Position numbers and translations under genes: made by a program. Of a stretch of DNA of 64,000 nucleotides, positions 17,528 through 55,330 are shown one piece after another. The stretch comes from Agathobacter ruminis (GTDB lineage Bacteria; Bacillota; Clostridia; Lachnospirales; Lachnospiraceae), in contig NZ_PDYG01000074.1 in assembly GCF_002735305.1 (NCBI RefSeq), positions 62,001-126,000 on the forward strand. Direction: 5' to 3'. Under the pieces are notes generated by a model that worked only from the letters and a program-made list of their open reading frames with translations, ran no database searches and had not been told where the DNA came from. The first letter of the stretch is position 1, and every line of letters begins with the position of its first letter.

Positions 17528-18064
17528 CCACTCTGCCCCTGCCTGCCATGCGCTACCTCCGCCCCTCCCGCACACGATAGGCTCGATGGCTTAGATTCTC
17601 CAAAACCGTACGCACCGCTTCAAGAGGTTGTCCTTTCACCGATTTTGCATTTCGACAAACTGTCTTTTCGTCGCAAACACCTTAATGTGTTTCGTATCGC
17701 TTTCCTGTCCATATAGACCGGTTGAGGAACACTGTCCGCTTGCTATACCGTCTCAGAGCGTCCATCCGGGACGCCATCGACTCTCGCCGCCGTCCGTGGC
17801 GGCTCGTATCGAGCGCTGTGCAAAGCCGGCTTCTGTTTTACTAAGCGCACTCCCAACGATGTTCCTCAACCGGTCTATATGGCCCAGGAAAGTGATAAAG
17901 ACTAACGAGTGTTTGCGTTGAAAAGACCGTGTAGGAGAAGTGCAAATAGTTGAAAGAACAACCTCAATCAAAGAAGTGGTGCGCAGTTTTGTTGAGAATC
18001 TTGCCTTCAAATGCCGTGTGTGCGGAGGGGCGGAGGCAGCGCATGGCAGGCAGGGGCTGAGTGG
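17528..18064. repeat. Long foldback element, family 1, copy 1
   Basis: This 537-bp intergenic stretch (gap 17488-18240) is one long imperfect inverted repeat. The outer left arm (17528-17575) is nearly the exact reverse complement of the outer right arm (18018-18064); both carry the CTGCCTGCCATGCGCT block or its complement. Inside lies a core shared with the copies at 29650 and 54756: TTTCACCGATTTTGCA on the left and AGTGCAAATAGTTGAAAGAAC on the right, meeting at a tip with small hairpins (GCGTCC/GGACGC; GCCGCC/GGCGGC). Copy 1 lacks about 35 bases of the inner left arm that copies 2 and 3 have. The open frames inside are overlapping, non-homologous in register and lack ribosome sites, so no protein is called. 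It could be a structured RNA or a non-autonomous mobile element. Confidence 0.85.
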
Positions 18065-18140
18065 GAGAAGCAGATGAGAGCGAGGCGGGGGGCGGAAGAA
18101 AGGGAACTGTCTGATAATTGTAAAAATAAAGCAGAAATGG

Positions 18141-18168
18141 TTGAAAGTTATGCGTAAAGTGGTATGAT
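18141..18168 (+). promoter_or_regulatory. Probable promoter of the chemoreceptor gene
   Basis: TTGAAA (18141-18146) and TATGAT (18163-18168) are spaced by 16 bases, about 70 bases before the chemoreceptor start. It lies just beyond the right end of foldback copy 1. A sigma-28-type motif was looked for and not seen. Confidence 0.5.
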
Positions 18169-18240
18169 TGTAGTATAAAAGTGATACTAATTTCCTATTT
18201 TTTAAGGGGATTACAATAAAATGAAGAAAGAGGTGGGGTT

Positions 18241-19977
18241 ATGAACAGACCACAAAAGGGAAAGAAAACACGAAAATTGAGTATCATGTTTAAAATTATG
18301 ATACCGGTGACGCTGGTTTTGCTGATTGTTTCGTCGGCATTGACCATCATGACATTTCGCTCGGCAAAAAAGTATATGGTTGAGCTTGGTGCGGAAAAGG
18401 CACAGGCTGTTGCAGAGGCGGCAGGACTGATTCTGGATGGAGATGTCATTGAGGGATTGAAACCGGGGGATGAGCAGAGTGAACAGTATATTGCAATGAT
18501 TGATCAGGTTCAGAGCATGCAGGAGCAGTTTAATATCGCATTTCTGTATACCATTTATGCAGATGGAGATGGTTTGTATTACGGTCTTGACAGTTCAGAA
18601 GACGGAGAAGCCATCGGAACGGAGATTGATTTCGTCACCATAGACGAATTAAAACCTGTATTTGCAGGCGAAGCAATTGCACAGCCGTATATCGATCAGT
18701 CAGAGGACGGTGATTTGATTACCGCTTATGCACCGATTAAAAACAGCGCCGGAAAAATTATTGCGGTGGTTGGATGTGATTATAATGCAAGCAATATTGT
18801 AATTGAAACCAACAAGCTTCAGATGAGAGCTGTAATGGTGACCGGATTCGGAATCCTGATCGGACTTGCAATTTTGTTTATCATCATTCATGTGATTATC
18901 CGTAATTTGAGAATCGTGAATGACAAATTATATGACCTTGTTCATAATGAGGGAGATTTGACACAGCGTGTGGATATTCATACGGGAGACGAGACGGAAC
19001 TGATGGCCAATAACATCAACGACCTGCTCGAATATATGCGCGGCATTATGAAAAATATCCGTCATAATTCACACATCCTGCGGGATGCGTCTTCGAATAT
19101 TTCCGGCAATCTCGATCTGGCACAGGTCAATGCTTCCGAAGTGAGCTCTACCATGGAATCCATCAGTGCTGCCATGGAAGAGACATCCGCATCTTTGAAT
19201 GAGATCAATGGCGATATCGGAAATATTTATAATGCGATTACCGATATCAGCAACCGCGCGCAGGACGGACGCAAATTTACCGAGAACTTCCGCGAGCATG
19301 CAGTTTCGACTGAGCAAAAAGCGGTGGAAGATAAGGAAAGTGCAGCCGTGCGTGTCAATGAAATCGGCGAAACGGTTCGTACACAGATTGAACGATCAAA
19401 AGATGTTGAGCAAATTAACATTTTGACGGATAATATTATCAGTATTACGGAGCAGACCAACCTGTTGTCTTTGAATGCTTCGATTGAAGCGGCTCGCGCA
19501 GGTGAAGCCGGAAAAGGTTTTGCGGTTGTTGCTAATGAAATCAGCAAGCTGGCACAAAATTCCGCCAGCGCCGCAACAGAAATTCAAAAGGTCAGTGCTT
19601 CTGTCATTGAAACCGTAGAGGAACTCGCCAAATCCGCAGAGAATATGATTGAATTCATGCGTACCACTGCAATGACCGGCTATGAGGAACTGGTCAATAC
19701 CTGTACAGACAATCAGCAGAGTGCGGAAGAACTGGTTGCAATCATGCAGGAATTTGCATCCATCAGCGAAGAAGTGCAGCAAAATATCGATAATATCAAA
19801 TCTGCAACCGATGCAGTAAATATTGCGGTAGAAGAAAGTGCACAGGGCGTAACCAATGTGGCAAGCCGTTCCAGCGATATGGTAATATCCATGGAGCAAA
19901 TCGGCAATGAAGCAGGTTCAAGCAGCGAAATCTCAGTGACTCTTTCGGATGAGGTACACAAATTTAAACTGGATTAG
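18241..19977 (+). CDS. Methyl-accepting chemotaxis protein
   Basis: A 578-residue chemoreceptor. A transmembrane helix at about 15-37 is followed by a roughly 150-residue extracytoplasmic sensor of Cache-like type (it contains [17 protein letters not shown] and [10 protein letters not shown]), a second helix at about 197-220, a HAMP linker, and a cytoplasmic coiled coil with hairpin tip [20 protein letters not shown] and [13 protein letters not shown]. No CheR/CheB-tethering pentapeptide is at the C-terminus. The site AGAGGTGGGG precedes the ATG. The ligand is unknown. The presence of an MCP implies a chemotaxis system elsewhere in the genome; none of its other genes are in this window. Confidence 0.92.
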
Positions 19978-19988
19978 GGAATAGAAAA

Positions 19989-20948
19989 ATGATGACATTT
20001 AGTCTTTGTATGATTGTCAAAAATGAAGAAGCGGTGCTGGCGAGGTGTCTGGATTCCATTCAGGATCTGATGGATGAAATCATCATAGTGGACACAGGCT
20101 CGACAGACCGGACCAAGGAGATTGCGGCGCAGTACACCGACAAAATCTATGATTTTGCATGGGTGGATGATTTTTCGGCTGCGCGTAATTTCGCCTTTTC
20201 GAAAGCAACCTGCGATTATATCTATTCTGCAGATGCGGATGAGGTCCTGGATATTGAGAATCATCAAAGACTGGCCATGCTCAAGCAATATCTGCTGCCT
20301 GAAATCGAGATTGTGCAAATGCATTATCTCACACGCAATGAATATAATACGACGCAGAATTATATGGATGAGTATCGGCCGAAATTATACAAGCGTCTGC
20401 GCACCTTTACCTGGATTCATCCGGTACATGAGGTGGTTCGTCTCGACCCGGTTGTATTTGACAGTGATATCGAGATCATTCATCTGCCACAGTCCATGCA
20501 CAACAAACGCGATTTTCATATTTTTAAGAATACGTTCGAGCAGCAGGGGGCGCTCTCACCGGAAGTGTTCAATATGTATGCAAAGGAACTGTTTATCAGC
20601 GGAGCCGACTGGGATTTTACAGAGGCTCTGACCATTGCAAAATCTGCATGCGACGATCCGGCGACACCGGAGGAAATGGTGCAGGAGGCGCAATGTATTC
20701 TCGCACATGCGTATCTGGTGGAAAACAAAATCCCGGAATTCTTTGATTTGGCATTTCGCACGCTGCATGATTTCCCATGCTCAGAAATCTGCTTTGAAAT
20801 CGGTGAATATTTCCGTTTGCGCGGAGACTGCGAGGAGGCGGGAAACTGGTACAAAATGGCAATCGAGGAAACGGAACCTGTGATCGACATTCGCCGCGGG
20901 GGAACGCTCGCGGAAGAACGCCTGCGTGAATTGCACAAAACACATTGA
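19989..20948 (+). CDS. Family 2 glycosyltransferase with helical-repeat tail
   Basis: A 319-residue cytoplasmic protein starting with a GT-A domain: SLCMIVKNEE, EIIIVDTGSTDRTKEIA and the metal-binding region SADADEVLD. The C-terminal 130 or so residues are helical and TPR-like (CILAHAYLVENKIPEFFDLA). This matches the SunS/TPR group of GT2 enzymes that glycosylate peptides or surface glycans; acceptor unknown. It starts 11 bases after the chemoreceptor stop and is probably co-transcribed with it. A second ATG lies one codon later (19992). Protein glycosylation, for instance of flagellin, is possible but unsupported by neighbours. Confidence 0.85.
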   Translation: MMTFSLCMIVKNEEAVLARCLDSIQDLMDEIIIVDTGSTDRTKEIAAQYTDKIYDFAWVDDFSAARNFAFSKATCDYIYSADADEVLDIENHQRLAMLKQYLLPEIEIVQMHYLTRNEYNTTQNYMDEYRPKLYKRLRTFTWIHPVHEVVRLDPVVFDSDIEIIHLPQSMHNKRDFHIFKNTFEQQGALSPEVFNMYAKELFISGADWDFTEALTIAKSACDDPATPEEMVQEAQCILAHAYLVENKIPEFFDLAFRTLHDFPCSEICFEIGEYFRLRGDCEEAGNWYKMAIEETEPVIDIRRGGTLAEERLRELHKTH

Positions 20949-20973
20949 CATTTCAAGACAATTGAACGATGAT
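20945..20973 (+). promoter_or_regulatory. Possible promoter of the small membrane protein gene
   Basis: A consensus -35 box TTGACA (20945-20950) overlaps the glycosyltransferase stop codon. At 17-base spacing the -10 position is GATGAT (20968-20973), a weak match. The call rests mostly on the -35 box. Confidence 0.3.
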
Positions 20974-21048
20974 AAAAATATAAGGATTTTAACTCAGTCG
21001 GGGTACAAGCTCCGCGAGCGAGTCTTGACTATATTAGGAGGGGATTAC

Positions 21049-21201
21049 ATGTTACAAAAGATAAAAGACCATTTCGTCACTTATGAAGATGACGGAGCCA
21101 TGACCATTACGCTTTTTTCAAGCATTTCTGAAGTGATCATTCTGGTATTGGCGATTGTAGCTGTTGTCGAATTTATTATGCTGCGCAAGAGACGCAAATA
21201 A
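21049..21201 (+). CDS. Small single-pass membrane protein, unknown function
   Basis: A 50-residue protein starting at the ATG preceded by the perfect site AGGAGGGG. It has a short charged N-terminal segment (KDHFVTYEDDGAM), one hydrophobic helix (about residues 24-44, EVIILVLAIVAVVEFIML) and a basic end RKRRK, so it is likely inserted with the C-terminus inside. It is followed by its own terminator and preceded by about 100 bases containing a GC-rich palindromic stretch (CTCCGCGAGCGAG). I do not recognise a family; such proteins can be regulators of larger membrane complexes or toxins, and nothing nearby chooses between these. Confidence 0.7.
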   Translation: MLQKIKDHFVTYEDDGAMTITLFSSISEVIILVLAIVAVVEFIMLRKRRK

Positions 21202-21226
21202 GTGTTGGAAATATGATAAGTATAAG

Positions 21227-21257
21227 AAACCACCGGCTCGAAAAGCCGGTGGTTTTT
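21227..21257 (+). terminator. Terminator after the small membrane protein
   Basis: AAACCACCGGCT (21227-21238) pairs perfectly with AGCCGGTGGTTT (21244-21255) around a five-base loop, ending in a run of five T residues. Confidence 0.9.
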
Positions 21258-21288
21258 AATGCCCTGAAACAGGACCGATTGCAGAAGG

Positions 21289-21650
21289 CTACCATTCACA
21301 GCCTGCAATCCTGCAATTACATCCTCGCCCCATAGCTCCGGTAACTCCTTCACTTTGCAAGAATATTTTGGTTTTCTAATATGCAAAAGCTCGCATTCTG
21401 ATTACCATATGTCTTTTGAACGCCTGCACAATTTTGAAAAAAGGTTTATAGTTGGCGGACACCAAAAACTGTCGTATATGTAAAGTGTCCGCCACTTCAT
21501 AAACCTTTTCCCAAAATCGTTCATTCTCAAAAGACACATGAGTGATGCTCGCCTTTTGCATATTGAAAATCTAAAATATTCGCAAAATGCGAAGGAGTTA
21601 CCGGAGCTATGGGGCGAGGACGCTATTGCAATGAATGCTGTGAATGGTAG
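21289..21650. repeat. Long inverted repeat, family 2, copy A
   Basis: A 362-bp foldback element. The left end CTACCATTCACAG (from 21289) pairs with the right end CTGTGAATGGTAG (to 21650). Blocks such as ATAGCTCCGGTAACTCCTTC recur in inverted form on the right. The two arms converge on a perfect 10-bp stem TGGCGGACAC (21453-21462) and GTGTCCGCCA (21485-21494) with a 22-base loop. Read outward, both arms encode similar peptide strings (KELPELWGED), which follows from the inverted symmetry and is not evidence for a gene. A partial copy lies at 37008-37310. Function unknown; it may be a structured RNA or a foldback mobile element. Confidence 0.8.
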
Positions 21651-22039
21651 TTACAAAATCTGTCATTGGGAAAAACCACTAAAATGTGAATCGCGTTCTT
21701 GTATGTTTTTCATGAAATAAAAAATCCGGCTTGCAAACAGGGGAGAGGGGTGCTATTATCGTTGTTGGGAACGATACCGAAACCGTTACCGATAACGATA
21801 CCGACATCCTCCAGTGCTTGCGGAATTCGGCAGCCGCCTGCATTGGTCAGCATCGTTTTGGTGAGTGAGGTTTCGCTCCAATCCTCGTTAGTCCATTTTT
21901 CAGTTGATGTCATCACAATTAGGGATGTGGTGGCATCTTACTGGAAAACCATGTGAGACATGGATTCGGCAAAAGGACCTGAGGATTATATGACTAAGCT
22001 TTTCATGGTTTACTAATATATTTAAGGAGGGACATTACT
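21651..22039. other. Intergenic region upstream of the sugar ABC operon
   Basis: About 390 bases without a convincing gene. It holds a LacI-type operator-like palindrome (21784-21797), a small perfect hairpin CCATGT-GAG-ACATGG (21949-21963), and AAACCATG (21946-21953) mirrored by CATGGTTT (22004-22011). A 68-codon minus-strand frame (21710-21916) lacks a ribosome site and resembles no family I know; it could be a decayed gene end. The strong site AAGGAGG at 22024 serves the binding protein. No clear promoter was located; TAATAT at 22014 is too close to the ribosome site to be used. Confidence 0.5.
21784..21797. promoter_or_regulatory. LacI-type operator-like palindrome
   Basis: CGTTACCGATAACG is an inverted repeat (CGTTA/TAACG) with a CG-centred core, the usual form of LacI-family operators, embedded in related half-sites (ACGATACCGAAACCG and ACGATACCGAC). 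It lies about 240 bases upstream of the ABC operon whose last gene precedes a LacI regulator, the likely binder. The distance to the coding start is larger than usual. Confidence 0.4.
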
Positions 22040-23332
22040 ATGAAAAAGAAGCTTGTTAGTGTATTGCTTTGCGCTGCTATGACAGCCGGACTTGTTGCCG
22101 GATGTGGCGGAAAAGCAGGGGACACATCCAAAGGGGATGCCAAAGGATCTGTTTACTGGTTGAATTTTAAACCGGAAGCAGACGAAGGACTCCAGACTTT
22201 GGCAAAAGAGTACACCGAAGAGACCGGTGTGGATGTAAAGGTGGTAACCGCTGCATCCGGAACCTACAGTTCTACTTTGACTGCAGAAATGGCAAAATCA
22301 GAGGCACCTACATTATTTGTTGTAGGTAACCAGGGCGGTGTCGCTACATGGAAAGATTACTGCTATGATTTGAAAGATACTGCAGTATACAAGGAGCTTA
22401 CAACTGATGATTTCACTTTGTATGATGAGTCAGGCAAGGCATGCTCCATCGGATATTGCTATGAGACATTCGGTATCATTGTAAACAAGACTTTGCTGGA
22501 CAAAGCAGGATACAAGACCGAAGACATCAAAGATTTCGCAAGCTTAAAGAAGGTTGCGGATGATATTCATGCAAGAGCAGGAGAGTTGGGATTTGATGCC
22601 TTTACTTCTTCCGGAATGGACGATTCTTCTTCGTGGAGATTCTCCGGACACCTTGCAAACCTTCCACTTTACTATGAGGAGCAGGCGGATAAGTGGACAG
22701 GATGTCCTGCTGAAATTAAAGGAACCTACCTTGACAATTACAAGAACATCTGGGATCTTTACACAACAGATTCCGCTGTAGACAAGACCACTCTTGCTAC
22801 CGGTGGATATGATGCAGAAGGCGAGTTTTTAAACGGACAGGCAGTCTTCTACCAGAATGGTTCTTGGGAATATGAGAACCTCAGTAAGAAATATGGCGAT
22901 GATGAACTTCAGATGATTCCGATTTACACCGGTGTGGATGGAGAAGAGAATCAGGGACTTTGCTCAGGCACAGAGAACTGCTGGGCTGTAAATGCAAAGG
23001 CTTCCGAAGAAGACATCAAGGCAACACTTGACTTTATGAACTGGCTCGTAACCAGCGAAAAAGGAACTACATTCATGGCTGAAAAGTTTGGAGAGATTCC
23101 TTACAAGAAAGCTGCTGAGAACAAGAATGTATTCTTCCGTGATGCTAAGGCACTGATGGAAGCAGGAAAGTATTCTGTTGATTGGGCATTCAATTATACT
23201 CCGAATGTAGATGAGTGGAGAGCAGGCGTTGTAGCAGCATTGAACAACTATGATGCCGGTGGCAGCTGGGATGATGTAGTAACCGCATTTGTTGACGGTT
23301 GGGCTACTCAGTATAAAGCTGCAAACGAATAA
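22040..23332 (+). CDS. Sugar ABC transporter substrate-binding lipoprotein (maltodextrin type)
   Basis: A 430-residue extracellular binding protein. The signal peptide MKKKLVSVLLCAAMTAGLVAGC ends in a lipobox (LVAGC), so it is lipid-anchored at the Cys. The mature protein has the cluster-B/MalE fold pattern (LQTLAKEYTEETGVDVKVV; GQAVFYQNGSWE; CSGTENCWAVNAKASEE). Genomic context (two MalF/G permeases, MalQ, LacI regulator) indicates an alpha-glucan oligosaccharide such as maltodextrin. A strong site AAGGAGGGA precedes the start. A terminator-like stem follows the gene and may let this gene be expressed above the permeases. No ATPase subunit is present; a shared MsmX-type ATPase elsewhere is expected. 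Confidence 0.9.
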   Translation: MKKKLVSVLLCAAMTAGLVAGCGGKAGDTSKGDAKGSVYWLNFKPEADEGLQTLAKEYTEETGVDVKVVTAASGTYSSTLTAEMAKSEAPTLFVVGNQGGVATWKDYCYDLKDTAVYKELTTDDFTLYDESGKACSIGYCYETFGIIVNKTLLDKAGYKTEDIKDFASLKKVADDIHARAGELGFDAFTSSGMDDSSSWRFSGHLANLPLYYEEQADKWTGCPAEIKGTYLDNYKNIWDLYTTDSAVDKTTLATGGYDAEGEFLNGQAVFYQNGSWEYENLSKKYGDDELQMIPIYTGVDGEENQGLCSGTENCWAVNAKASEEDIKATLDFMNWLVTSEKGTTFMAEKFGEIPYKKAAENKNVFFRDAKALMEAGKYSVDWAFNYTPNVDEWRAGVVAALNNYDAGGSWDDVVTAFVDGWATQYKAANE

Positions 23333-23343
23333 AAAAGTCATGT

Positions 23344-23376
23344 TTCAGGGCAGGTCTATGGCCTGCCCTGAATTTT
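23344..23376 (+). terminator. Intra-operon stem-loop after binding-protein gene
   Basis: TTCAGGGCAGG and CCTGCCCTGAA form a perfect 11-bp stem with a seven-base loop and a short T run. It lies between the binding protein and the permease genes, where it probably acts as a partial terminator or 3' stabiliser that raises the ratio of binding protein to permease, as in other sugar ABC operons. Confidence 0.75.
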
Positions 23377-23389
23377 TGAGGAGATATTT

Positions 23390-25152: not shown

Positions 25153-25173
25153 AGATACGAGGAGGAGAAGACA

Positions 25174-26670: not shown

Positions 26671-26678
26671 TTGAAAAG

Positions 26679-26711
26679 CGGTTCTGCAAAATCTTGCAGA
26701 ACCGTTTTTTT
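26679..26711 (+). terminator. Terminator after malQ
   Basis: CGGTTCTGCAA (26679-26689) and TTGCAGAACCG (26694-26704) form a perfect stem with a four-base loop, followed by seven T residues. Its descending arm contains the TTGCAG used as the -35 box of the LacI gene promoter. Confidence 0.9.
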
Positions 26712-26722
26712 CGGGGTATAAT
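26694..26722 (+). promoter_or_regulatory. Promoter of the LacI regulator gene
   Basis: TTGCAG (26694-26699) is spaced 17 bases from a perfect TATAAT (26717-26722). Transcription would begin near 26729, at the edge of an operator-like palindrome. The -35 box lies within the malQ terminator stem. Confidence 0.7.
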
Positions 26723-26729
26723 CAAAAAG

Positions 26730-26746
26730 TTGTATCCGATATACAA
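26730..26746. promoter_or_regulatory. Probable autoregulatory operator of the LacI gene
   Basis: TTGTATCCGATATACAA is a 17-base imperfect palindrome (TTGTAT/ATACAA) positioned at the predicted transcription start of the LacI-type gene. Binding here would block initiation. It shares the CCGATA core with the palindrome at 21784 upstream of the ABC operon. Confidence 0.55.
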
Positions 26747-26767
26747 ATAACAATTCGAGGTAAAGCT

Positions 26768-27793: not shown

Positions 27794-29572
27794 TTCATTG
27801 GTCTGGCGGATTTGTTCCGCCAGATTTTCTAAATAATCCCAACGCTCCATTTTTTCCAGCAATTCATTTTCACAAGCTTCTTTTTCTGCGGTAAGTTCCG
27901 TAAGTTTTCCATAGCTGGAAGCATTTCGCAGAATATCAGCCTCAAGATCGGAAATACGCTCCTCAAGGGCGGCAATATCCGCTTCGATGGTCTCGTATTC
28001 TTTTTGTTCCTGATAGGTGAATTTAATTTTTGTACTTTTCTTTTTCCATGTGGTGCGTGAATCGGAAGTCATCGCACTTTTACTTTGTGTACTTTCTTCT
28101 TCCCAAAACGGCAGCGGGGTCTTTTCAAGATAATCCGTATATCCGCCCTCATATTGATGAATTTCTCCGCGCTCAAATGCAAAGATCCGGTGTACAACGC
28201 GATCGAGAAAATGACGGTCGTGCGATACTGTCACGATGATTCCCGGGAAATTTTCCAGATAATCTTCAAGAATCGCAAGTGTCTCCGTATCCAGATCGTT
28301 GGTCGGCTCATCGAGAATTAAAAAATTCGGATTGCCCATCAGGACGTTCAGCAGAGCCAGTCGCCGTTTTTCGCCGCCGGAGAGCTTTTCAATCGGACTG
28401 TATTGCTGTTCCGGTGTAAACAAAAACCGTTCAAGCATCGACGATGCCGATATCTTTCCGTCTACAGTCGGAATGTATTCCCCTGTCTCGCGAATATAAT
28501 CAATCACGCGTTCGCCTGGATTCATCCACTGGATTTCTTGCCCGAAATATCCCATCTGCACGGTCTGACCGACAGTCACATTTCCGCTGTCCGGGGTCAG
28601 CAGCCCGGCAATGATTTTCATCAGTGTGGTCTTGCCGCATCCGTTATTGCCGACAAATCCCACGCGATCCTGTTTCAAAAAGATATAGGAAAAGTCATTG
28701 ATGATGGTGCGATTGTCATATGACAGTTGAATTCGGTCCAGTTCCACGGTGGTGCGGCCCATACGCGTCGCAATAGAGCCCATCTGCAGGCTTTCCTGTA
28801 CCTTTGGAGCCTCCATATCGCGCAATGCCTCATAGCGCTGAATATGTGCCTTCTGCTTGGTCGAACGGGCGCGTGCACCGCGCCGAATCCATGCCAGCTC
28901 ACGTCGCAAAATATTCTGGCGTTTCTGTTCGGAGGAGCGAATGTTGTCATATCGTGCGGCTTTGCGCTCCAAAAACCCGGAATAATTGCAGTCATAGCTG
29001 TAAATGTGCGACTGATCGATTTCGACAATTCTGTCACAGACTTCATCCAGGAAATACCGGTCATGCGTTACCATAATGATGGTTCCCTGATATCCGTTCA
29101 AATATTTCTGCAGCCATTCAATCATGCCATAATCCAGATGGTTGGTCGGCTCATCAAGCAGCAACAGATCTGCCGGTTTCGACAGTGCAATTGCCAGCGC
29201 CAGCTTCTTTCGCTGCCCCCCTGACATTTCGCCCACTTTTTGCTCTAAATCCGTAATGGACAGTCTCGTCAGAATCGTGAGTGCTTCTGTTTCATTCTCT
29301 GTCTGCGCAAGCACATTCTCGCGCACCGATTTCTCATCATCGAACTGCGGATCCTGCGGCAGATAACTGATTACCACATGATTCGCCTTAATCACATTTC
29401 CCTCATCCGGCTCCTCCTGCCCCGCAACCATCTTCAGCAAAGTAGATTTTCCGGTCCCGTTGATTCCGACAATCCCGACCTTCTCATGCTCCTGCACAAA
29501 AAAAGAGGCCTCCTCAAACAACAGGTGGTCCGTATATGCTTTTGTTAATTTTTCTATATTTACCACATTCAT
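27788..29572 (-). CDS. ABC-F ATPase with Uup-like C-terminal coiled coil
   Basis: A 594-residue soluble protein with two ABC ATPase domains and no membrane segment. Walker A motifs are GINGTGKST and GNNGCGKTT; signatures are MSGGQRKKLALA and LSGGEKRRLALL. The C-terminal 80 or so residues form a coiled coil (EADIAALEERISDLEADI) as in Uup. ABC-F proteins act on ribosomes or on branched nucleic acids (Uup). The start is placed at the ATG at 29572 because homology begins with MNVVNIEKLTKAY; no good ribosome site is visible. An antibiotic-protection role is possible but less likely than housekeeping. Confidence 0.88.
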   Translation of the reverse strand: MNVVNIEKLTKAYTDHLLFEEASFFVQEHEKVGIVGINGTGKSTLLKMVAGQEEPDEGNVIKANHVVISYLPQDPQFDDEKSVRENVLAQTENETEALTILTRLSITDLEQKVGEMSGGQRKKLALAIALSKPADLLLLDEPTNHLDYGMIEWLQKYLNGYQGTIIMVTHDRYFLDEVCDRIVEIDQSHIYSYDCNYSGFLERKAARYDNIRSSEQKRQNILRRELAWIRRGARARSTKQKAHIQRYEALRDMEAPKVQESLQMGSIATRMGRTTVELDRIQLSYDNRTIINDFSYIFLKQDRVGFVGNNGCGKTTLMKIIAGLLTPDSGNVTVGQTVQMGYFGQEIQWMNPGERVIDYIRETGEYIPTVDGKISASSMLERFLFTPEQQYSPIEKLSGGEKRRLALLNVLMGNPNFLILDEPTNDLDTETLAILEDYLENFPGIIVTVSHDRHFLDRVVHRIFAFERGEIHQYEGGYTDYLEKTPLPFWEEESTQSKSAMTSDSRTTWKKKSTKIKFTYQEQKEYETIEADIAALEERISDLEADILRNASSYGKLTELTAEKEACENELLEKMERWDYLENLAEQIRQTNES

Positions 29573-29649
29573 AGCATAGAGTGTAGCACAGATGCCGCAA
29601 TTTCTCAATTTCCCCTTCACTGTCCCCGTGCCCATCACCATCTAGGGCT

Positions 29650-30220
29650 CCGCACACAAGCCCTGCCCGGGGCGCCCCCATCCCCCCTCAGCTCTCACAC
29701 AGTGCTCAAACTTGATTCGTTCAGAAAGTTGTGCATTGCTTCAAGGATTAAGGCTGTTCTTTCAACTATTTGCACTTCTCCTGCACAGTCTTTTCTACGC
29801 AAACACTCGTTAGTCTTTATCACTTTCCTGGGCCATATAGACCGGTGGAGGAACATCGTTGGGAGTGCGCTTAGTAAAACAGAAGCCGCTTTTGCGAAGT
29901 GCTCGATACGAGCCGCCACGGACGGCGGCGAGAGCCGATGGCGTCCCGGATGGACGCTCTGAGGCGATATCGAGTACTCAAAAGCGGCTTCGTGGTTTTA
30001 CTTAGCAAGCGGACAGTGTTCCTCCACCGGTCTATATGGACAGGAAAGCGATACGATAGTCTACAAGGTGTTTGCGATGAAAAGACAGTTTGTCGAAGTG
30101 CAAAATCGGTGAAAGGACAGCCTGATGAAGCAATGCACGACTTTCGAAGAATCTAAGTTCTCGCACTTATCGTGAGAGCTGAGGGGGGATGGGGGCGCCC
30201 CGGGAAGGGCCTGTGTGCGG
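29650..30220. repeat. Long foldback element, family 1, copy 2 (core inverted)
   Basis: This 571-bp element fills most of the gap 29573-30431 between the divergent ABC-F and glp genes. The outer arms (29650-29699 and 30171-30220) are almost exactly complementary (CCGGGGCGCCCCCATC block), but their sequence is unrelated to the arms of copies 1 and 3. The inner core is homologous to those copies but in opposite orientation: here the AAATCGGTGAAAGGACAGCC block is on the right. Inner arms pair AAGCCGCTTTTG with CAAAAGCGGCTT, and the tip has two GC-rich hairpins (GCCGCC/GGCGGC and GCGTCC/GGACGC). No ribosome-bound frame is shared between copies. Confidence 0.85.
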
Positions 30221-30278
30221 TGGGCAGGCGGTAAATGGGGGGACGGGGACGGCGAAAGGGAACATTAATTGCGGCATC

Positions 30279-30307
30279 TTGCACACGCGTGCAGAATGTG
30301 GTAAAAT
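30279..30307 (+). promoter_or_regulatory. Promoter of the glp operon
   Basis: TTGCAC (30279-30284) and TAAAAT (30302-30307) with a 17-base spacer; transcription would start near 30314, leaving a leader of about 118 bases that carries the terminator. A partial palindrome TGCAC-ACGC-GTGCA (30280-30293) overlaps the -35 box and could be a repressor site. Confidence 0.6.
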
Positions 30308-30334
30308 ATAGAAAAAATAAGAGCACCAATGAGA

Positions 30335-43344: not shown

Positions 43345-43380
43345 ACATTACCTCCTGATTATTAGAAAAAATACTTTCCA

Positions 43381-43409: not shown

Positions 43410-43462
43410 GATTCTTTTAAGAAAAACTTAATAAATAAAGCAAAAAGTTTATTTCTGTTTTG

Positions 43463-43491: not shown

Positions 43492-43523
43492 GAAAATGCT
43501 TTATATACAGTAAGGAGAATTAC

Positions 43524-45728: not shown

Positions 45729-45744
45729 TTTCTGAGGAACGCAT

Positions 45745-47610: not shown

Positions 47611-47639
47611 TTGCTGATGCTGTCATTTTATGATAAGAT
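47611..47639 (+). promoter_or_regulatory. Possible promoter upstream of hprK
   Basis: TTGCTG (47611-47616) and TAAGAT (47634-47639) with a 17-base spacer in the 74-base gap after uvrC. Both boxes deviate from consensus, so hprK may equally be read through from uvrC. Confidence 0.3.
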
Positions 47640-47684
47640 AAAGAGTACGGTATAAACCAAAGATGACGGATAAGGAGGTTTCTC

Positions 47685-48629: not shown

Positions 48630-48635
48630 AAACAT

Positions 48636-50075
48636 ATGGCTGGAAAGACAGCAAAGAAGCAAAAAGAGACCAAAATTGTCTATGCGTGGGAAAAGTATCC
48701 GCAGGGCAAGGAGAGAGATAAGGTCATGAAATTTGCGGAGTCTTATCGCAAATTCATTTCAGAAAATAAAACAGAGCGTGAGTGCACATCCACAATCTAC
48801 GAAGATGCAATCAAAAACGGATTTGTTGATCTTGAGGAAGTGATTGCTTCCGGCAAAAAGCTTGAGGCAGGAAGCCGTGTGATTGCCAATAATATGGGAA
48901 AAGGACTGGCACTTTTCATTGTCGGAGAAGAACCGATTCAGAATGGAATGAACATTCTCGGTGCGCATATTGACAGCCCGCGCATCGATTTGAAGCAGGT
49001 GCCGCTCTATGAAGATGCGCTTTACAAAACCCATTTTGCAATGCTTGATACCCATTATTACGGCGGAATCAAGAAATATCAATGGGTAACCCTTCCACTT
49101 GCTTTGCATGGTGTATTTGCAAAGAAGGATGGAAGTGTTGTCAATGTCAGCATCGGTGACAAGCCGGGTGATCCGGTATTCGGTATCAGTGATTTGCTGA
49201 TTCATCTCGCAGGCAGTCAGATGAGCAAGAAGGCAACGGAAGTCATCACAGGTGAGAAACTGGATATCCTTGTCGGCAGCATCGCAAAGTCAAAGGAAGA
49301 AGAGGAAGAGGCAAAAGATCTCGTCAAGAAAAATGTACTTGCGATTCTTGCCGAGACATATGGCATCGAAGAAGATGATTTCCTTTCTGCAGAAATCGAA
49401 GTGGTTCCGGCAGGGGAAGCGCGCGACTACGGTCTTGACCGCAGTATGATCATGGGATACGGTCATGACGATCGTGTCTGTGCATATCCTTCTTACAAGG
49501 CAATGCTCAAAATCGATCAGCCAAAGTATACATCCGTATGTCTGCTGGTGGACAAGGAAGAAATCGGATCGGTCGGCGCAAGCGGCATGCAGTCCCGTTT
49601 CTTCGAGAACTGTGTGGCAGAAATGATCGCATTGACCGGAGAATACAGCGATTTGTATGTGCGTCGGGCTTTGAAAAATTCCAAGGCACTGTCATCGGAT
49701 GTATCTGCAGCACTTGATCCGAATTTCCCGGCTGTTATGGAAGACAAAAACTCCGCTTTCTTTGGAAAGGGACTCGTATTCAACAAATATACCGGATCCA
49801 GAGGCAAGTCCGGATCCAATGATGCAAATGCGGAATATGTTGCAAAAGTCCGCGCAATCATGGACAACAACAATGTCAAATTTCAGACCGCAGAGCTTGG
49901 AAAGGTTGATGAGGGCGGCGGCGGAACCATCGCATATATTCTCGGCAATTACAATATGAATGTCATTGACAGCGGTGTTGCGGTATTGAATATGCATGCG
50001 CCATGGGAAATCATCAGTAAAGTGGATTTGTATGAGGCTTATCTTGGATATGTCGCATTTTTGAAGGAAGCCTGA
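48636..50075 (+). CDS. M18-family aminopeptidase
   Basis: A 479-residue cytosolic zinc aminopeptidase. Metal and catalytic regions: NILGAHIDSPRIDLKQ, LLVDKEEIGSVGASGMQS, GYGHDDRVCAY and NMHAPWEIISKVD near the C-terminus. Members remove acidic or aliphatic N-terminal residues; exact preference is not visible. It starts 6 bases after hprK stop with the site GAGGAGG. Confidence 0.93.
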   Translation: MAGKTAKKQKETKIVYAWEKYPQGKERDKVMKFAESYRKFISENKTERECTSTIYEDAIKNGFVDLEEVIASGKKLEAGSRVIANNMGKGLALFIVGEEPIQNGMNILGAHIDSPRIDLKQVPLYEDALYKTHFAMLDTHYYGGIKKYQWVTLPLALHGVFAKKDGSVVNVSIGDKPGDPVFGISDLLIHLAGSQMSKKATEVITGEKLDILVGSIAKSKEEEEEAKDLVKKNVLAILAETYGIEEDDFLSAEIEVVPAGEARDYGLDRSMIMGYGHDDRVCAYPSYKAMLKIDQPKYTSVCLLVDKEEIGSVGASGMQSRFFENCVAEMIALTGEYSDLYVRRALKNSKALSSDVSAALDPNFPAVMEDKNSAFFGKGLVFNKYTGSRGKSGSNDANAEYVAKVRAIMDNNNVKFQTAELGKVDEGGGGTIAYILGNYNMNVIDSGVAVLNMHAPWEIISKVDLYEAYLGYVAFLKEA

Positions 50076-50078
50076 TTC

Positions 50079-50996
50079 ATGGAAACATTTGTAGAAAAGT
50101 TAAGAAGGGTAATTGCAGATGACCGCATCCTGCTGAATGAGCCGATGCGGAAGCATACCACATTTCGTGTCGGAGGTCCGGCGGATATTTATGTCAAGCC
50201 GGCCATCGAAGAAATTCCGGCACTCATCGCGCTGGCCCGCAGAGAAAATATTCCGTATACCATCATTGGAAACGGAAGCAATCTGCTTGTCAAAGACGGT
50301 GGCATTCGTGGCATGGTCGTTGAGCTGGGTGTGGATGCCGGTATGATTCATATGAAGGACGGCAGTACCCATATGATTACGGCAGAGGCCGGAGTCCGTC
50401 TGGGAAATCTCGCGCAAAAAGCTGCGGAGCACAGTCTGAGAGGACTGGAATTTGCAGCCGGAATTCCGGGGGCGGTCGGCGGAGCCGTTTTTATGAACGC
50501 GGGTGCATACGGCGGAGAAATCAAAGATGTGCTGCATTCCGTGACCGTTCTTGAAGAAAACGGTGCAGTTACGACTGTTCCTGCAAAAGATCTCGAACTG
50601 TCCTACCGTCACAGCGCGGTAGAGGAAAACAATTATATTATTTTATCGGCCTCCTTTTTGCTGGAAGAGGGGGAAGAGACCGAAATCCGTGCGGCCATGA
50701 GCGATTACAGCAGACGCCGTCTGGAAAAGCAGCCGCTTGAATTCCCAAGTGCCGGAAGCACATTTAAGCGACCGGAGGGAATGTTTGCAGGCAAACTGAT
50801 TCAGGATGCCGGACTGCGTGGTTTCCGTGTCGGAGATGCACAGGTGTCGGAAAAACATTGCGGCTTTGTCATTAACCGCGGCAATGCGACCGCAAAGGAT
50901 TTGCTGGAATTGATTGCACAGGTTCAAACACGTGTGCAGGAACAATTCGGCGTGCATCTGGAGACAGAAGTGCGCATATTGGGAGAAGACGAATGA
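50079..50996 (+). CDS. murB: UDP-N-acetylenolpyruvoylglucosamine reductase
   Basis: A 305-residue flavoprotein that makes UDP-MurNAc in peptidoglycan synthesis. FAD-binding segment (TIIGNGSNLLVKDGGIRGMV), GIPGAVGGAVFMNAGAYGGE, and C-terminal PSAGSTFKRPEGMFAGKLI with the catalytic Ser. Lacks the extra loop of type I enzymes, so it is type II. Overlaps rapZ by 4 bases. Confidence 0.96.
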   Translation: METFVEKLRRVIADDRILLNEPMRKHTTFRVGGPADIYVKPAIEEIPALIALARRENIPYTIIGNGSNLLVKDGGIRGMVVELGVDAGMIHMKDGSTHMITAEAGVRLGNLAQKAAEHSLRGLEFAAGIPGAVGGAVFMNAGAYGGEIKDVLHSVTVLEENGAVTTVPAKDLELSYRHSAVEENNYIILSASFLLEEGEETEIRAAMSDYSRRRLEKQPLEFPSAGSTFKRPEGMFAGKLIQDAGLRGFRVGDAQVSEKHCGFVINRGNATAKDLLELIAQVQTRVQEQFGVHLETEVRILGEDE

Positions 50997-51868
50997 GACT
51001 TGTAATCGTAACAGGCATGTCAGGTGCCGGAAAAAGTACAACAATGAAGATGCTCGAAGATATGGGCTTTTTCTGTGTGGATAATCTTCCGGTTCCGCTG
51101 TTGCCGAATCTGGTGGATTTTTCCAATGAATTCTACCAGAATGTCGAGAAAGTAGCAGTCGGTGTGGATGTCAGAAGCGGCAAAGCAATTGCTGATCTGA
51201 TGCCGGTAGCAAAAGCATTCCGTGAACAGGGCGGTGATTTGTCCATCCTGTTTCTGGATGCATCGGATGAGGTGCTGGTAAAGCGCTACAAAGAGACCCG
51301 CCGCAACCATCCGCTTGCGATGAACGAGCGTGTGGAGATGGCGATTGCCGAGGAACGCAGCCAGCTTCGTATGTTGCGGGAACAGGCAGATTATATTATT
51401 GACACGAGCCATCTGCTTACGCGTGAGCTCAAAACCGAACTGCAAAATATTTTTATGAATCAGGAAGATTATAAAAATTTGTATGTGACAATTCTGTCGT
51501 TCGGCTTTAAATACGGCATTCCGTCGGACTCCGACATGGTGATGGACGTGCGTTTTCTGCCAAATCCTTACTATGTAGAGGAATTGCGTCCGAAGACGGG
51601 AAATGACAAGGAAATCCGGGATTATGTGCTTGGTTGTGAAGAGGCACAGGTATTCCTGGACAAGATGGAAGATTTGATTGATTTTCTGATTCCGAATTAT
51701 ATTTCGGAAGGCAAGAATCAGCTGGTAATCTCAATCGGCTGCACCGGCGGCAAGCATCGCTCGGTTACGCTGGCCAATGAGATTTATAAACGATTGAGCG
51801 AAAACAAGACCTACGGGTTAAAGATTGAGCACCGCGATATCGCAAAAGATGCAATTCGCGGCAAATAA
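50993..51868 (+). CDS. rapZ: RNase adapter/nucleotide-binding protein RapZ
   Basis: A 291-residue P-loop protein (Walker A VTGMSGAGKSTTMK; DNLPVPLLPNL) with the conserved C-terminal ISIGCTGGKHRSVTLANEI. RapZ/YvcJ proteins bind nucleotides and a glucosamine-pathway metabolite; in Bacilli the homologue affects competence and cell wall. Directly precedes whiA, the standard Firmicutes arrangement, though without yvcK between them. Confidence 0.95.
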   Translation: MRLVIVTGMSGAGKSTTMKMLEDMGFFCVDNLPVPLLPNLVDFSNEFYQNVEKVAVGVDVRSGKAIADLMPVAKAFREQGGDLSILFLDASDEVLVKRYKETRRNHPLAMNERVEMAIAEERSQLRMLREQADYIIDTSHLLTRELKTELQNIFMNQEDYKNLYVTILSFGFKYGIPSDSDMVMDVRFLPNPYYVEELRPKTGNDKEIRDYVLGCEEAQVFLDKMEDLIDFLIPNYISEGKNQLVISIGCTGGKHRSVTLANEIYKRLSENKTYGLKIEHRDIAKDAIRGK

Positions 51869-51882
51869 TTGAGGAAACAAGA

Positions 51883-52755
51883 ATGTCCTTTTCTAGAGAA
51901 ATCAAGGAAGAACTGTCCAAACAGATCAGTAAGAGCCGCCACTGCCAGATGGCAGAAATTGCGGCACTGCTGGAGATGGAGGGTTGTGCTTCCATGGAAC
52001 CGCTAAGCATGAATCTGGAAACAGACAACAATCTGCTTCTCGATACCTATGCAATGCTGGTTCGGCGCGCATTTGATGTAGATCCGCAAAATCCGCTGGA
52101 TGAAACGGTATCGCGCAAAATGCTCGAGGCACTGAAGTGGGAGACCCCGAATTTAAAAGAACAGCGTACCAACGGCATGCTCTTGCAACAGACCTGTTGC
52201 AGGAGAGCTTTTTTGCGTGGAGCTTTTATGGCTGCGGGATCGATCAGCGACCCGAATACCAAAAGTTATCATTTTGAAATTTCGGTGCGCACGCAGGCAC
52301 AGGCTGACCAGATTGTCGAGCTGATGCAGAGCTTTGACCTGTCTGCAAAGGTGGTAGAACGCAAGAAAAGATATGTGGTCTATCTCAAGGAGGCAGAGCA
52401 AATCGTGGACATGCTCAATGTCATGGAAGCTTATGTGGCTTTGATGAAACTTGAGAATGTGCGTATTCTCAAAGAAATGCGTAATACGGTCAACAGAAAA
52501 GTGAATTGCGAGACTGCCAATATCAGCAAGACCGTAAATGCTGCAATTAAGCAGGTGGAAGACATTCGACTGATTGAAAAAATGCGAGGACTCGACTCAT
52601 TGCCACAGGCATTGCGGGAAATGGCATATTTGCGTTTGGAATATCCGGACATGCCACTCAAGGAGCTTGGAACTCTGCTGGACCCGCCGGTTGGAAAAAG
52701 CGGGGTGAATCACAGACTGCGCAAGATTTCCGCCATCGCAGAGACTTTGCGATAA
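51883..52755 (+). CDS. whiA: DNA-binding protein WhiA
   Basis: A 290-residue regulator with an N-terminal LAGLIDADG-like fold (CCRRAFLRGAFMAAGSISDP) and a C-terminal helix-turn-helix (LPQALREMAYLRLEYPDMPL and GKSGVNHRLRKI). It affects cell division and chromosome segregation in Gram-positive bacteria. Starts 14 bases after rapZ. No HPr-like crh gene follows, unlike in some relatives. Confidence 0.95.
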   Translation: MSFSREIKEELSKQISKSRHCQMAEIAALLEMEGCASMEPLSMNLETDNNLLLDTYAMLVRRAFDVDPQNPLDETVSRKMLEALKWETPNLKEQRTNGMLLQQTCCRRAFLRGAFMAAGSISDPNTKSYHFEISVRTQAQADQIVELMQSFDLSAKVVERKKRYVVYLKEAEQIVDMLNVMEAYVALMKLENVRILKEMRNTVNRKVNCETANISKTVNAAIKQVEDIRLIEKMRGLDSLPQALREMAYLRLEYPDMPLKELGTLLDPPVGKSGVNHRLRKISAIAETLR

Positions 52756-52767
52756 TAAGACCGAAAC

Positions 52768-52796
52768 TTGACAGCATTTGTGGAAATGAGTATTTT
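52768..52796 (+). promoter_or_regulatory. Promoter of the lipid kinase gene
   Basis: A consensus TTGACA (52768-52773) and TATTTT (52791-52796) are separated by 17 bases, 36 bases before the kinase start. Confidence 0.6.
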
Positions 52797-52831
52797 ATAG
52801 AAGGTTGCAATGTTTAAGAAAAGAGAGAATC

Positions 52832-53719
52832 ATGAGTAAAAAGCTATTATTTATCTACAATCCTTTTTCCGGAAAGGGTTTGATTAAAAAGCACCTTGCG
52901 GACATTATCGACGCAATGGTCAAAAAAGGATTTGAGGTGACAACCTATCCGACTCAGGCAAGAGGGGACGGAATGGAAAAAGCCAAGGCAGAGGCGGCAA
53001 ATTATGACCGCATCGTCTGTAGCGGCGGCGATGGCACATTGGACGAAGTGATGACGGGTGTGATGCAAAGCGGCGTCGATATTCCAATCGGATATATTCC
53101 GGCAGGAAGCACGAATGATTTTGCCAATTCCCTGAAAATCCCAAAGGAAATGCCAAAGGCAGCTGTGGTTGCGGCAGGCAATCATATTTTCCCTTGCGAC
53201 ATCGGAGATTTTAACGGAGATACATTTGTCTATGTGGCTGCATTCGGACTGTTTACCGAAGTTTCTTATCAGACTTCGCAGCAGATGAAAAATATTCTCG
53301 GCCATGTGGCATATCTGCTTGAGGGAATCAAACATCTGGTGGATATCCCGAGTTTTACGATGCAGGTCGAGCATGACGGTACCATTATCCAGGACAAATT
53401 CATCTATGGAATGGTAACGAATTCCATGTCTGTTGGTGGCTTTAAGGGCATTACCGGAGATGATGTCAAACTTGATGACGGCGTCTTTGAGGTGACACTG
53501 ATCAAAACACCGCGCAATCCAATTGAATTGAATCAGATTATTCGCGCACTGACCAATCGCGCAGATGATACGGATATGATTTATACCTTTAAGACAGATG
53601 AATTAAAATTTGTCACAAATAAAGAAGTTCCATGGACATTGGACGGAGAATTCGGCGGCAAGCACACGGAGCTGCTGGTTCGCAACCTGAATAAACGCGT
53701 ACAGATTCTCGTTCCGTAA
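52832..53719 (+). CDS. YegS/DgkB-type lipid kinase
   Basis: A 295-residue soluble diacylglycerol-kinase-fold enzyme. It begins KLLFIYNPFSGKGLIKKHL, has the nucleotide motif VCSGGDGTLDEVMTG and the PAGSTNDFANSL block, and ends with the usual C-terminal strand region TLDGEFGG. It phosphorylates diacylglycerol or a related lipid for phospholipid recycling. The ATG at 52832 with AAGAGAG upstream is chosen over the earlier 52805 because homology starts there. Confidence 0.9.
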   Translation: MSKKLLFIYNPFSGKGLIKKHLADIIDAMVKKGFEVTTYPTQARGDGMEKAKAEAANYDRIVCSGGDGTLDEVMTGVMQSGVDIPIGYIPAGSTNDFANSLKIPKEMPKAAVVAAGNHIFPCDIGDFNGDTFVYVAAFGLFTEVSYQTSQQMKNILGHVAYLLEGIKHLVDIPSFTMQVEHDGTIIQDKFIYGMVTNSMSVGGFKGITGDDVKLDDGVFEVTLIKTPRNPIELNQIIRALTNRADDTDMIYTFKTDELKFVTNKEVPWTLDGEFGGKHTELLVRNLNKRVQILVP

Positions 53720-53761
53720 GCGCGCGGGGTTAATTTTGTGAAATAATTAACTAGCATATTG

Positions 53762-53774
53762 CACAATCATTGTG
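53762..53774. promoter_or_regulatory. Operator-like palindrome upstream of fba
   Basis: CACAA-TCA-TTGTG is a perfect inverted repeat directly upstream of TATAAT (53775-53780). No good -35 box lies at the right distance, so transcription may need an activator bound here, or the site may be a repressor target. A small leader hairpin GCCGC/GCGGC follows at 53791-53806. Confidence 0.4.
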
Positions 53775-53837
53775 TATAATATAAGCGGTTGCCGCATTAT
53801 GGCGGCTCGGCGATAACAATTTTAGGAGGAAAGTAAA

Positions 53838-54707
53838 ATGTTAGTATCCGCAACTGAAATGCTCAAGAAAGCAAAAGAAGGCCATTATGCAGTAGGCCAG
53901 TTCAACATCAACAACTTAGAGTGGACCAAATCCATTCTTTTAACTGCACAGGAATTAAACAGCCCGGTTATCCTTGGTGTATCTGAAGGCGCCGGAAAGT
54001 ATATGACCGGTTTCAAGACCGTAGCTGCTATGGTAAAGGCTATGGACGAAGAACTCGGAATCACTGTTCCTGTAGCACTTCACTTAGATCATGGTACATA
54101 CGAAGGATGCTATAAGTGCATCAAGGCCGGATTTACCTCTATCATGTTTGACGGCTCTCACTATCCATTCGAAGAGAACCTTGCAAAGTCTACCGAACTT
54201 GTTCATGTAGCACATCAGCTTGGCCTTTCTATCGAGTGTGAAGTTGGTTCCATCGGTGGAGAAGAAGACGGTGTCGTAGGAATGGGCGAGTGCGCTGATC
54301 CTGAAGAATGCAAGACCATCGCAGATCTCGGTGTAGATATGCTTGCAGCAGGTATCGGTAATATCCATGGAAAGTATCCTGAAAACTGGCAGGGACTTTC
54401 ATTCGAGACACTTGATGCAATCCAGCAGAAGACCGGAGCTATGCCACTTGTACTTCACGGTGGTACAGGAATCCCTGCAGATATGATCAAGAAAGCCATC
54501 GAACTTGGCGTTTCCAAGATCAACGTAAATACTGAATGCCAGCTTTCATTCCAGGAAGCTACAAGAAAGTACATCGAAGCAGGCAAGGATCAGGAAGGAA
54601 AGGGCTTTGACCCTCGTAAACTTCTTGCACCTGGCGCAGAAGCTATCAAGGCAACTGTAAAAGAAAAGATGGAACTTTTCGGATCAGTAGGAAAAGCAAA
54701 CGCATAA
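53838..54707 (+). CDS. fba: Class II fructose-1,6-bisphosphate aldolase
   Basis: A 289-residue zinc aldolase of glycolysis and gluconeogenesis. Metal and catalytic motifs: VALHLDHGTYEGC, ECEVGSIGGEEDG, ihGKYPENW (zinc His), PLVLHGGTGIP and INVNTECQ. Codon choice (CTT, GGT, TCT, ATC) differs from neighbours in the manner of highly expressed genes. AGGAGG precedes the ATG and a strong terminator follows; it is a single-gene unit. Confidence 0.96.
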   Translation: MLVSATEMLKKAKEGHYAVGQFNINNLEWTKSILLTAQELNSPVILGVSEGAGKYMTGFKTVAAMVKAMDEELGITVPVALHLDHGTYEGCYKCIKAGFTSIMFDGSHYPFEENLAKSTELVHVAHQLGLSIECEVGSIGGEEDGVVGMGECADPEECKTIADLGVDMLAAGIGNIHGKYPENWQGLSFETLDAIQQKTGAMPLVLHGGTGIPADMIKKAIELGVSKINVNTECQLSFQEATRKYIEAGKDQEGKGFDPRKLLAPGAEAIKATVKEKMELFGSVGKANA

Positions 54708-54728
54708 TTTCCCCAACAACGGGCAACA

Positions 54729-54756
54729 GGCCGGCGCATCAGCGCCGGCCTTTTTT
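54729..54756 (+). terminator. Terminator of fba
   Basis: GGCCGGCGC (54729-54737) and GCGCCGGCC (54742-54750) form a perfect 9-bp stem with loop ATCA, followed by six T residues. The left end of foldback copy 3 starts at the last T. Confidence 0.93.
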
Positions 54757-55330
54757 GTCCCTCTTCAGTCTCAGCCCATGCCCCATCTGCTCCCGCCCCC
54801 CTACACAATAGGCTTCAAAGCCTAGATTCTCAAAAGTTGCGCAATGCTTCACACGGTTGTCCTTTCACCGATTTTGCACTTCAACAAACTGTCTTTTCAT
54901 CGCAAACACCTTGAAGCGTTTCAAATCGCTTTCCTGTCCTATATAGACCGGTACGGAACACTGTCCATTTGCTAAGTAAAACAACGAAGCCGCTTTTGAG
55001 TACTCGATACCGCCTCAGAGCGTCCATCCGGGACGCCATCGGCTCTCGCCACCGTCCGTGGCGGCTCGTATCGAGCGCTTCGCAAAAGCGGCTTCTGTTT
55101 TACTAAGCGCGTTCCCAATGATGTTCCTCCACCGGTCTATATGGCCCAGAAAAGTGATCAGGAATATCGGGTGTTTGCATAGAAAAGACTGTGTGGAAGA
55201 AGTGCAAATAGTTGAAAGAACAACCGCAATCAAAGAAGCGGTGCGCAACTTTTTCGAGAATCTTGCTTTGATATGCCGTGTGTAGGGGGCGGGAGCAGAT
55301 GGGGCATGGGCTGGGGGCTGAAGAGGGACA
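54756..55330. repeat. Long foldback element, family 1, copy 3
   Basis: A 575-bp inverted repeat filling most of the gap 54708-55389. Outer arms pair TGTCCCTCTTCAG (from 54756) with the complement ending at 55330, through the GCCCATGCCCCATCTGCTCC block; they are unrelated in sequence to the arms of copies 1 and 2. The core (TTTCACCGATTTTGCAC; CCGGTCTATATGGCCCAG) is homologous to and in the same orientation as copy 1. Inner arms pair AGCCGCTTTTG with CAAAAGCGGCT; the tip has GCGTCC/GGACGC and GCCAC/GTGGC hairpins. One inner-arm site (CCGGTACGGAAC versus GTTCCTCCACCGG) is mispaired here. No protein is supported. Confidence 0.85.

Follow-up and report, generated by a model that had tools for sequence, protein, structure and literature searches.

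The window analysed here is a stretch of 64,000 nucleotides from Agathobacter ruminis (contig NZ_PDYG01000074.1, positions 62,001 to 126,000), and it contains three giant intergenic foldback elements whose tips resemble the RNA family TwoAYGGAY (RF01731 in Rfam). The original prediction described each of them as a single imperfect hairpin with a conserved core and a multi-hairpin tip. Self-alignment and RNA folds agreed on the three hairpins and their places, element 2 proving longer than claimed, and core and tip were both seen. The folds of element 1, element 2 (29650-30220) and element 3 (54756-55330) reached -314.6, -371.9, and -337.7 kcal/mol (z = -20.5, -26.4, and -21.2), and none of 100 shuffles was as good in any of the three. 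The parts of the elements are listed below.

17528..18064, minus strand (the tip reads on the minus strand): element 1, whole foldback (self-alignment; RNA fold z -20.5)
17745..17809, minus strand: element 1, partial RF01731-like tip (35.5 bits, under the cut-off of 43)
17792..17797, minus strand: element 1, hexaloop ACGGAC
17758..17774, minus strand: element 1, GGA-pentaloop hairpin
29545..30320, plus strand: element 2, whole foldback with its outermost arms (self-alignment)
29858..30017, plus strand: element 2, TwoAYGGAY core (RF01731; 53.5 bits, E 5.8e-06)
29918..29923, plus strand: element 2, hexaloop ACGGAC
29941..29957, plus strand: element 2, GGA-pentaloop hairpin
29590..29602, plus strand: element 2, outer left 13-mer, an inverted copy of 30267-30279 (basis includes the empty-site alignment)
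30267..30279, plus strand: element 2, outer right 13-mer, in flank that aligns with the empty site of genome G180
54754..55332, minus strand (the tip reads on the minus strand): element 3, whole foldback (self-alignment)
54961..55118, minus strand: element 3, TwoAYGGAY core (RF01731; 53.2 bits, E 6.8e-06)
55054..55059, minus strand: element 3, hexaloop ACGGAC
55020..55036, minus strand: element 3, GGA-pentaloop hairpin

Identity and distribution of the elements

In the Rfam scan, TwoAYGGAY, described in 2010 (Weinberg 2010, PMC2864571), was the only family with a match in the window at or above the gathering score (43 bits; the model has 168 positions). Elements 2 and 3 exceeded this score and element 1 fell below it, while tip and inner stem matched the model. 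The suggestion of a new large structured RNA class was dropped, since the tips match RF01731, and a match of this kind is what the original prediction had itself named as evidence against that suggestion. At the gathering threshold, nothing in the whole window matched ROOL, GOLLD, OLE, or HEARO. The elements differ from the Rfam family as modelled in two ways. In the genome they are foldbacks of about 300-780 bp, in which an invertible core is flanked by arms private to the copy, and their loops follow ANGGAN more broadly than AYGGAY. Each window copy carries one ACGGAC hexaloop and one CGGAT pentaloop. RF01731 is typed as Cis-reg by Rfam, and the table of the 2010 report has it as probably not cis-regulatory (PMC2864571).

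The expectation of many copies per genome was borne out. The genome of the window gave 25 RF01731 matches, 24 of them over the cut-off, which were sorted by eye into 13 of the window type, 11 of a type "B" described below, and one of neither. Among sampled genomes, 24 of 60 from the genus and 21 of 150 from the family had RF01731 matches, each sample holding one genome per species and both including the genome of the window. Two sister species held 33 (G163) and 49 (G165) copies. Element 2 had no match in plasmid and phage records.

Cores that lie close together (within about 800 bp) were found in 18 divergent, no convergent, and two tandem arrangements (p 1.6e-09 against one quarter). The orientations were counted by eye from best-match lists (loci L055-L062, L081, L083, L094, L095, L098, and L099, and the genome match lists), with one orthologous pair counted in both G163 and G165. 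In genome G201, some close pairs have a conserved spacer in common.

As the original prediction held, the elements encode no recognisable protein and have no transposase nearby. No open reading frame (ORF) of at least 100 amino acids lies within any of the three, and the short ORFs, which were listed for element 2 alone, reach 86 amino acids at most. Seven of the eight neighbouring proteins had matches in a Pfam scan, none of them to a transposase. The genes flanking element 1 encode a cation efflux protein and a chemotaxis receptor, those flanking element 2 an ABC ATPase and a flavin adenine dinucleotide (FAD) oxidoreductase, and those flanking element 3 a class-II aldolase and a protein with no Pfam match. 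Terminator-like hairpins stand immediately before elements 1 and 3.

A conserved, invertible core within private arms

In most copies examined, complementary arms extend well beyond the RF01731 region. The 168 positions of the Rfam model are the tip of a longer foldback, and each copy has outer arms of its own; the three window copies have little sequence in common in their outermost arms. In an alignment of 22 copies from G165, the core was strongly conserved and its inner stem held conserved mismatches. The linkers and the outer stem were hypervariable across copies, yet the two arms of any one copy matched each other, and weakly conserved ends lay outside the hypervariable outer stem. A T-T mismatch (alignment A1, columns 14 and 161) and other non-pairs are conserved in the inner stem across copies, a pattern that a protein-bound RNA or a strand mark would be expected to show.

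Core and arms follow different pairing regimes. In 35 of the 49 G165 cores, divergent or low-scoring ones being excluded, both sides had changed at 21 of 33 pairs while 95.3% of cells remained paired, and none of 500 shuffles reached as high. If a stem is under selection as the RNA of one particular strand, GU mismatches should be tolerated in it and AC mismatches should not. The same 35 copies had 22 GU against 4 AC mismatches in the core (p 0.0005), and 132 distinct tip hairpins had 15 against 3. The outer arms of G165 alone had 77 GU against 63 AC (41 of 49 copies), and the contrast with the core was significant (p 0.0045). The arm counts were 117/107 (GU/AC) in G163 and G165 together, 30/45 in other genera, and 50/70 in the genome of the window. 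Copies with an arm score below 50 were excluded, which left 72 of 82 copies from the two sister species, 16 of 22 from other genera (drawn from the 29 loci L026-L054), and 18 of 20 from the window's genome (drawn from its 25).

The sister species G163 and G165 differ at 1505 of 20775 fourfold sites (7.2%), at 377 of 10717 positions outside ORFs (3.5%), and at 0.7% of first and second codon positions. At orthologous sites, the conserved core columns differed in 17 of 1155 cases (1.5%) compared to 16 of 306 (5.2%) in the variable core columns (p 0.0003). A G165 partner was assigned to 25 of the 33 G163 copies. One of these pairs, C16:94699, is doubtful and was excluded from the core-divergence counts (44 of 158 core positions different). 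Copies C28:11189, C16:94699, C16:111648, and C37:12727 were placed by one flank, C37 being confirmed on both sides by alignment. Among the remaining G163 copies, one has a truncated partner in G165, for three the G165 copy is missing or half deleted, and for four no placement was possible; two of the three losses resemble deletions at short repeats and one is internal. Conversely, 23 of the 49 G165 copies had no counterpart in the G163 stretches compared. Two of these 23 lie in a block of about 7 kb (L164:3000-15000 against G163:C18) that G165 has and G163 lacks, and one edge of the block lies near an element.

These results indicated that the core behaves as a selected RNA, on the grounds of covariation, GU excess, and slow evolution of its conserved positions, and that the arms are kept complementary by a process at the DNA level.

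The sister comparison also revealed 6 pairs, out of 25, whose core was inverted in place between collinear flanks. The arms too aligned better collinearly in five of these, C44:15857 being ambiguous. The inverted stretch was about 265 bp in the one case measured. Among the inverted pairs, the longest exact match between the arms was only 13-51 bp, which makes a simple assembly error an unlikely source of the inversions. In the arms of 23 pairs (C16:94699 and C19:40917 being excluded), 17 paired columns carried a matched double change, where about 1-3 would be expected if the two sides had changed independently. Nine of the 17 lay in the six inverted pairs (9 of 295 columns compared to 8 of 727 elsewhere, p 0.054), a concentration that is suggestive, not firm.

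Since the arm mismatches lack an RNA-strand bias and stand together with inversions and matched double changes, template switching is indicated. Template switching can yield both matched double changes and loop inversions in hairpins, according to the part of a published study that deals with them (PMC8794818). The elements resemble those hairpins in combining the two kinds of change in one hairpin. They differ in scale, because the loop inversions reported in that part of the study were rare, mostly of four and up to eight nucleotides, whereas here the inverted stretch was about 265 bp in the case measured and 6 of 25 pairs showed an inversion.

Mobility and the family B shell

The original prediction had offered a non-autonomous foldback mobile element as a second possibility, and this was borne out in part. 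The elements are dispersed and patchy between species, and elements 1 and 2 are absent at the matching sites of the nearest relative, G180. At these sites, the gap between the flanking matches was 307 bp against 890 bp in the window for element 1, and about 54 bp against 731 bp for element 2. The left arm of element 2 holds the inverted 13-base copy of flank that aligns with the empty site. However, neither conserved terminal inverted repeats nor direct target duplications were found by eye in elements of the window type, no clean insertion event was observed, and most copies that could be placed stand at orthologous sites in both sister species.

A related composite family gave evidence of mobility. 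Its shell is represented in the window by a fourth foldback, which the original prediction had overlooked:

21289..21650, no strand assigned: fourth foldback, shell of family "B" without an ANGGAN tip (inverted repeats)

The termini of this foldback are like GTTACCATTCACAG, in which the shell copies terminate, and no ANGGAN hairpin was found in it. Sequence related to it occurs at no fewer than ten places in G180, and shells without a core exist both in the window (21289-21650) and in G180. In type B copies, the core sits at the same left junction within the shell in 11 of 11 cases, and the right junction was visible in nine. The flanks of the shells carry 8-bp direct repeats that match at eight of eight positions at L257 and L005 and at seven of eight at L009 and L266, and weakly at L004. 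No direct repeat was seen at L265, at L002, or at the window copy, and at L001 and L003 the flanks are inverted instead. To judge from these termini and repeats, one subgroup probably spread as part of a miniature inverted-repeat transposable element (MITE). With bacterial MITEs, the family B shell shares its terminal inverted repeats and, in four copies, the 8-bp direct repeats; neither feature was found by eye in the window-type elements, and most of their placed copies are common to the sister species.

Dispersed intergenic palindromes, at times in close inverted pairs, also recall the repetitive extragenic palindromes (REP) and bacterial interspersed mosaic elements (BIME) that go with REP-associated tyrosine transposases (RAYT), but the elements described here are far larger. 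Mobilisation by RAYT/Y1 transposases in present genomes was rejected, since PF01797 (Y1_Tnp) had no match in eight element-rich genomes (G163, G165, G186, G196, G198, G199, G200, and G203). An inverted target duplication at insertion was suggested by L055, by element 2 compared with G180, and by L001 and L003. It was rejected as the sole source of the private arms, because the hypervariable paired zone of the G165 copies lies inside weakly conserved ends, and it was retained as part of the picture. A 14-base pattern for the terminus of family B gave at least 120 stretches in viral contigs, which were judged to be chance matches. Near the shell, at 20979-21031, 28-40 bases recur identically or nearly so at several unlinked places of G180, perhaps as another short repeat.

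A putative CsrA-binding module and its rivals

The hexaloops of the tips fit ANGGAN, with both N positions variable. ANGGAN is the hexaloop of high-affinity CsrA/RsmE targets, according to passages of a 2020 review (PMC7652899). There were 106 double sites, 91 of which had their loops 29-30 nucleotides apart, and a reversed-sequence control gave 6. In the family sample, csrA was over the cut-off in all 21 genomes that bear the elements and in 59 of the 129 others (Fisher p 4.7e-07, uncorrected for kinship), and in the genus sample it was found in 23 of 24 bearing genomes. Motif matches had already led in 2014 to a proposed CsrA role for TwoAYGGAY (PMC4333381), and a Campylobacter jejuni leader with two ANGGAN-type loops 21 nucleotides apart titrates CsrA according to the relevant part of its report (PMC4894983). 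A CsrA function of the tips is a well-motivated hypothesis. At the level of sequence, the elements resemble the Csr/Rsm antagonist RNAs CsrB, RsmY, and RsmZ in placing GGA in the loops of short hairpins, in having several sites per RNA or genome, and in the presence of csrA. They differ in having two candidate sites per element, in being dozens of dispersed elements, and in the presence of FliW as well.

In several family members (G074:C68, G057:C9, G042:C54 and C27, G037:C137, G001:C90, G143:C16, G016:C292 and C144), a few hundred bases separate a flagellin gene from a second CsrA-like gene of lower score, and G143 has this type only. A second, divergent csrA paralogue was rejected as the specific partner of the elements, since, as counted by eye, roughly one in two element-bearing genomes of the genus lacks it.

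We favour, with about even confidence, the reading that the elements are dispersed putative CsrA-binding modules held within self-repairing, flipping palindromes. The foldbacks would be dispersed copies of one repeat type, built of two parts that obey different evolutionary rules. Tip and inner stem (TwoAYGGAY) would form an RNA module selected on one strand, whose short ANGGAN or GGA-loop hairpins, typically about 30 nucleotides apart, could be bridged by one CsrA dimer. If transcribed, many copies might act jointly as CsrA decoys, or mark transcripts for CsrA, beside the protein antagonist FliW. The long outer arms, private to each copy, would not be selected as RNA of the tip strand; template switching during replication across the palindrome may keep them complementary and flip the core in place. 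Rather less likely than not, in our view, is the stronger form of this idea, in which tens of CsrA decoys reside in template-switching palindromes and act together with FliW, so that the strand giving the decoy RNA would flip over evolutionary time while the hairpins persist.

A number of observations weigh against the CsrA-binding module in a flipping palindrome. Flagellin was likewise present in 21 of 21 bearing genomes, so co-occurrence cannot separate CsrA from motility. Within the genus, nearly all genomes have csrA (58 of 62), and the bearing genome G171 (68% complete) had no csrA match. Two strict ANGGAN hairpins were present in 53 of 82 cores of G163 and G165, in 9 of 22 cores of other genera, and in none of 20 cores of the window's own genome, each of which has one. 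The tip stems have 6-8 bp, compared to four or fewer in most CsrA ligands from systematic evolution of ligands by exponential enrichment (SELEX), and the loop spacing is wider than the 18-nucleotide optimum of CsrA, as far as the cited parts of the CsrA literature go. The GU and AC counts of the core are small, and recombination between the arms could invert the core too. Relative to tandem neighbours, the tips are oriented 18/18 in G165 and 4 sense to 10 antisense in G000; these orientations speak against a fixed cis role, not against a decoy.

Three other explanations were weighed. The elements may be a non-functional, non-autonomous MITE-like foldback transposon, spread by an unseen transposase, with tip hairpins that serve as a recognition structure only. 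We consider this unlikely, even though it suits the patchy distribution, the high copy number, the empty G180 sites of elements 1 and 2, and the family B composites with their common shell, terminal inverted repeats, and four sets of direct repeats. It leaves aside that conserved core positions are kept in copies at fixed orthologous sites, that the GU excess of the core is strand-specific, and that three quarters of the G163 copies have a G165 partner. For the window type, moreover, no such ends or duplications were found, and among the shells themselves direct repeats are lacking at L265, L002, and the window copy, weak at L004, and replaced by inverted flanks at L001 and L003. A gene-border element of RNA or DNA (a two-way terminator, a messenger RNA end, or an insulator) with no link to CsrA is less probable in our view. 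Elements 1 and 3 do come straight after terminator-like hairpins, the 49 G165 copies lie 36 times between tandem, nine times between convergent, and only four times between divergent genes, and an even tip orientation would suit a two-way function; but 5 of 21 G000 copies lie between divergent genes, and the conserved ANGGAN loops and the csrA pattern would go unexplained.

The third alternative, to which we give slightly less weight again, is that selection keeps the arms paired, as RNA of both strands or as a DNA cruciform, and that homologous or site-specific recombination between the arms inverts the core. It accords with the high pairing along the whole length of the arms, and a role of both strands would mask a GU bias. 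However, the arm counts are balanced in the sister species and tilted to AC in the other two sets, 9 of the 17 matched double changes fall in the six inverted pairs, as one joint mechanism would predict (p 0.054), and the exact arm matches of those pairs are short.

The elements look like a known RNA motif in a setting for which we found no earlier description, namely a foldback repeat of high copy number that flips and whose tip resembles a CsrA-binding module. The setting and the dynamics rest on the present data. In the passages of open-licence full texts that name TwoAYGGAY or RF01731, no longer foldback, in-place inversion, or test of csrA co-occurrence is described. The contrast in strand bias between core and arms offers a way to tell stems selected as RNA from stems maintained by DNA copying, and covariation alone would mislead about the arms. 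The elements are also a natural test bed for template switching, since the comparison of sister species shows individual hairpins with both long inversions and matched changes. The genomes that bear them combine FliW (found in 8 of 8 tested), csrA, and many elements with GGA hairpins; whether FliW and a small RNA act jointly on CsrA in any species was still to be determined, in the words of the 2020 review's passage on the question (PMC7652899). For TwoAYGGAY, whose function has not been settled since its description in 2010, the results provide a full anatomy, a copy number at genome scale, and a partner that can be tested.

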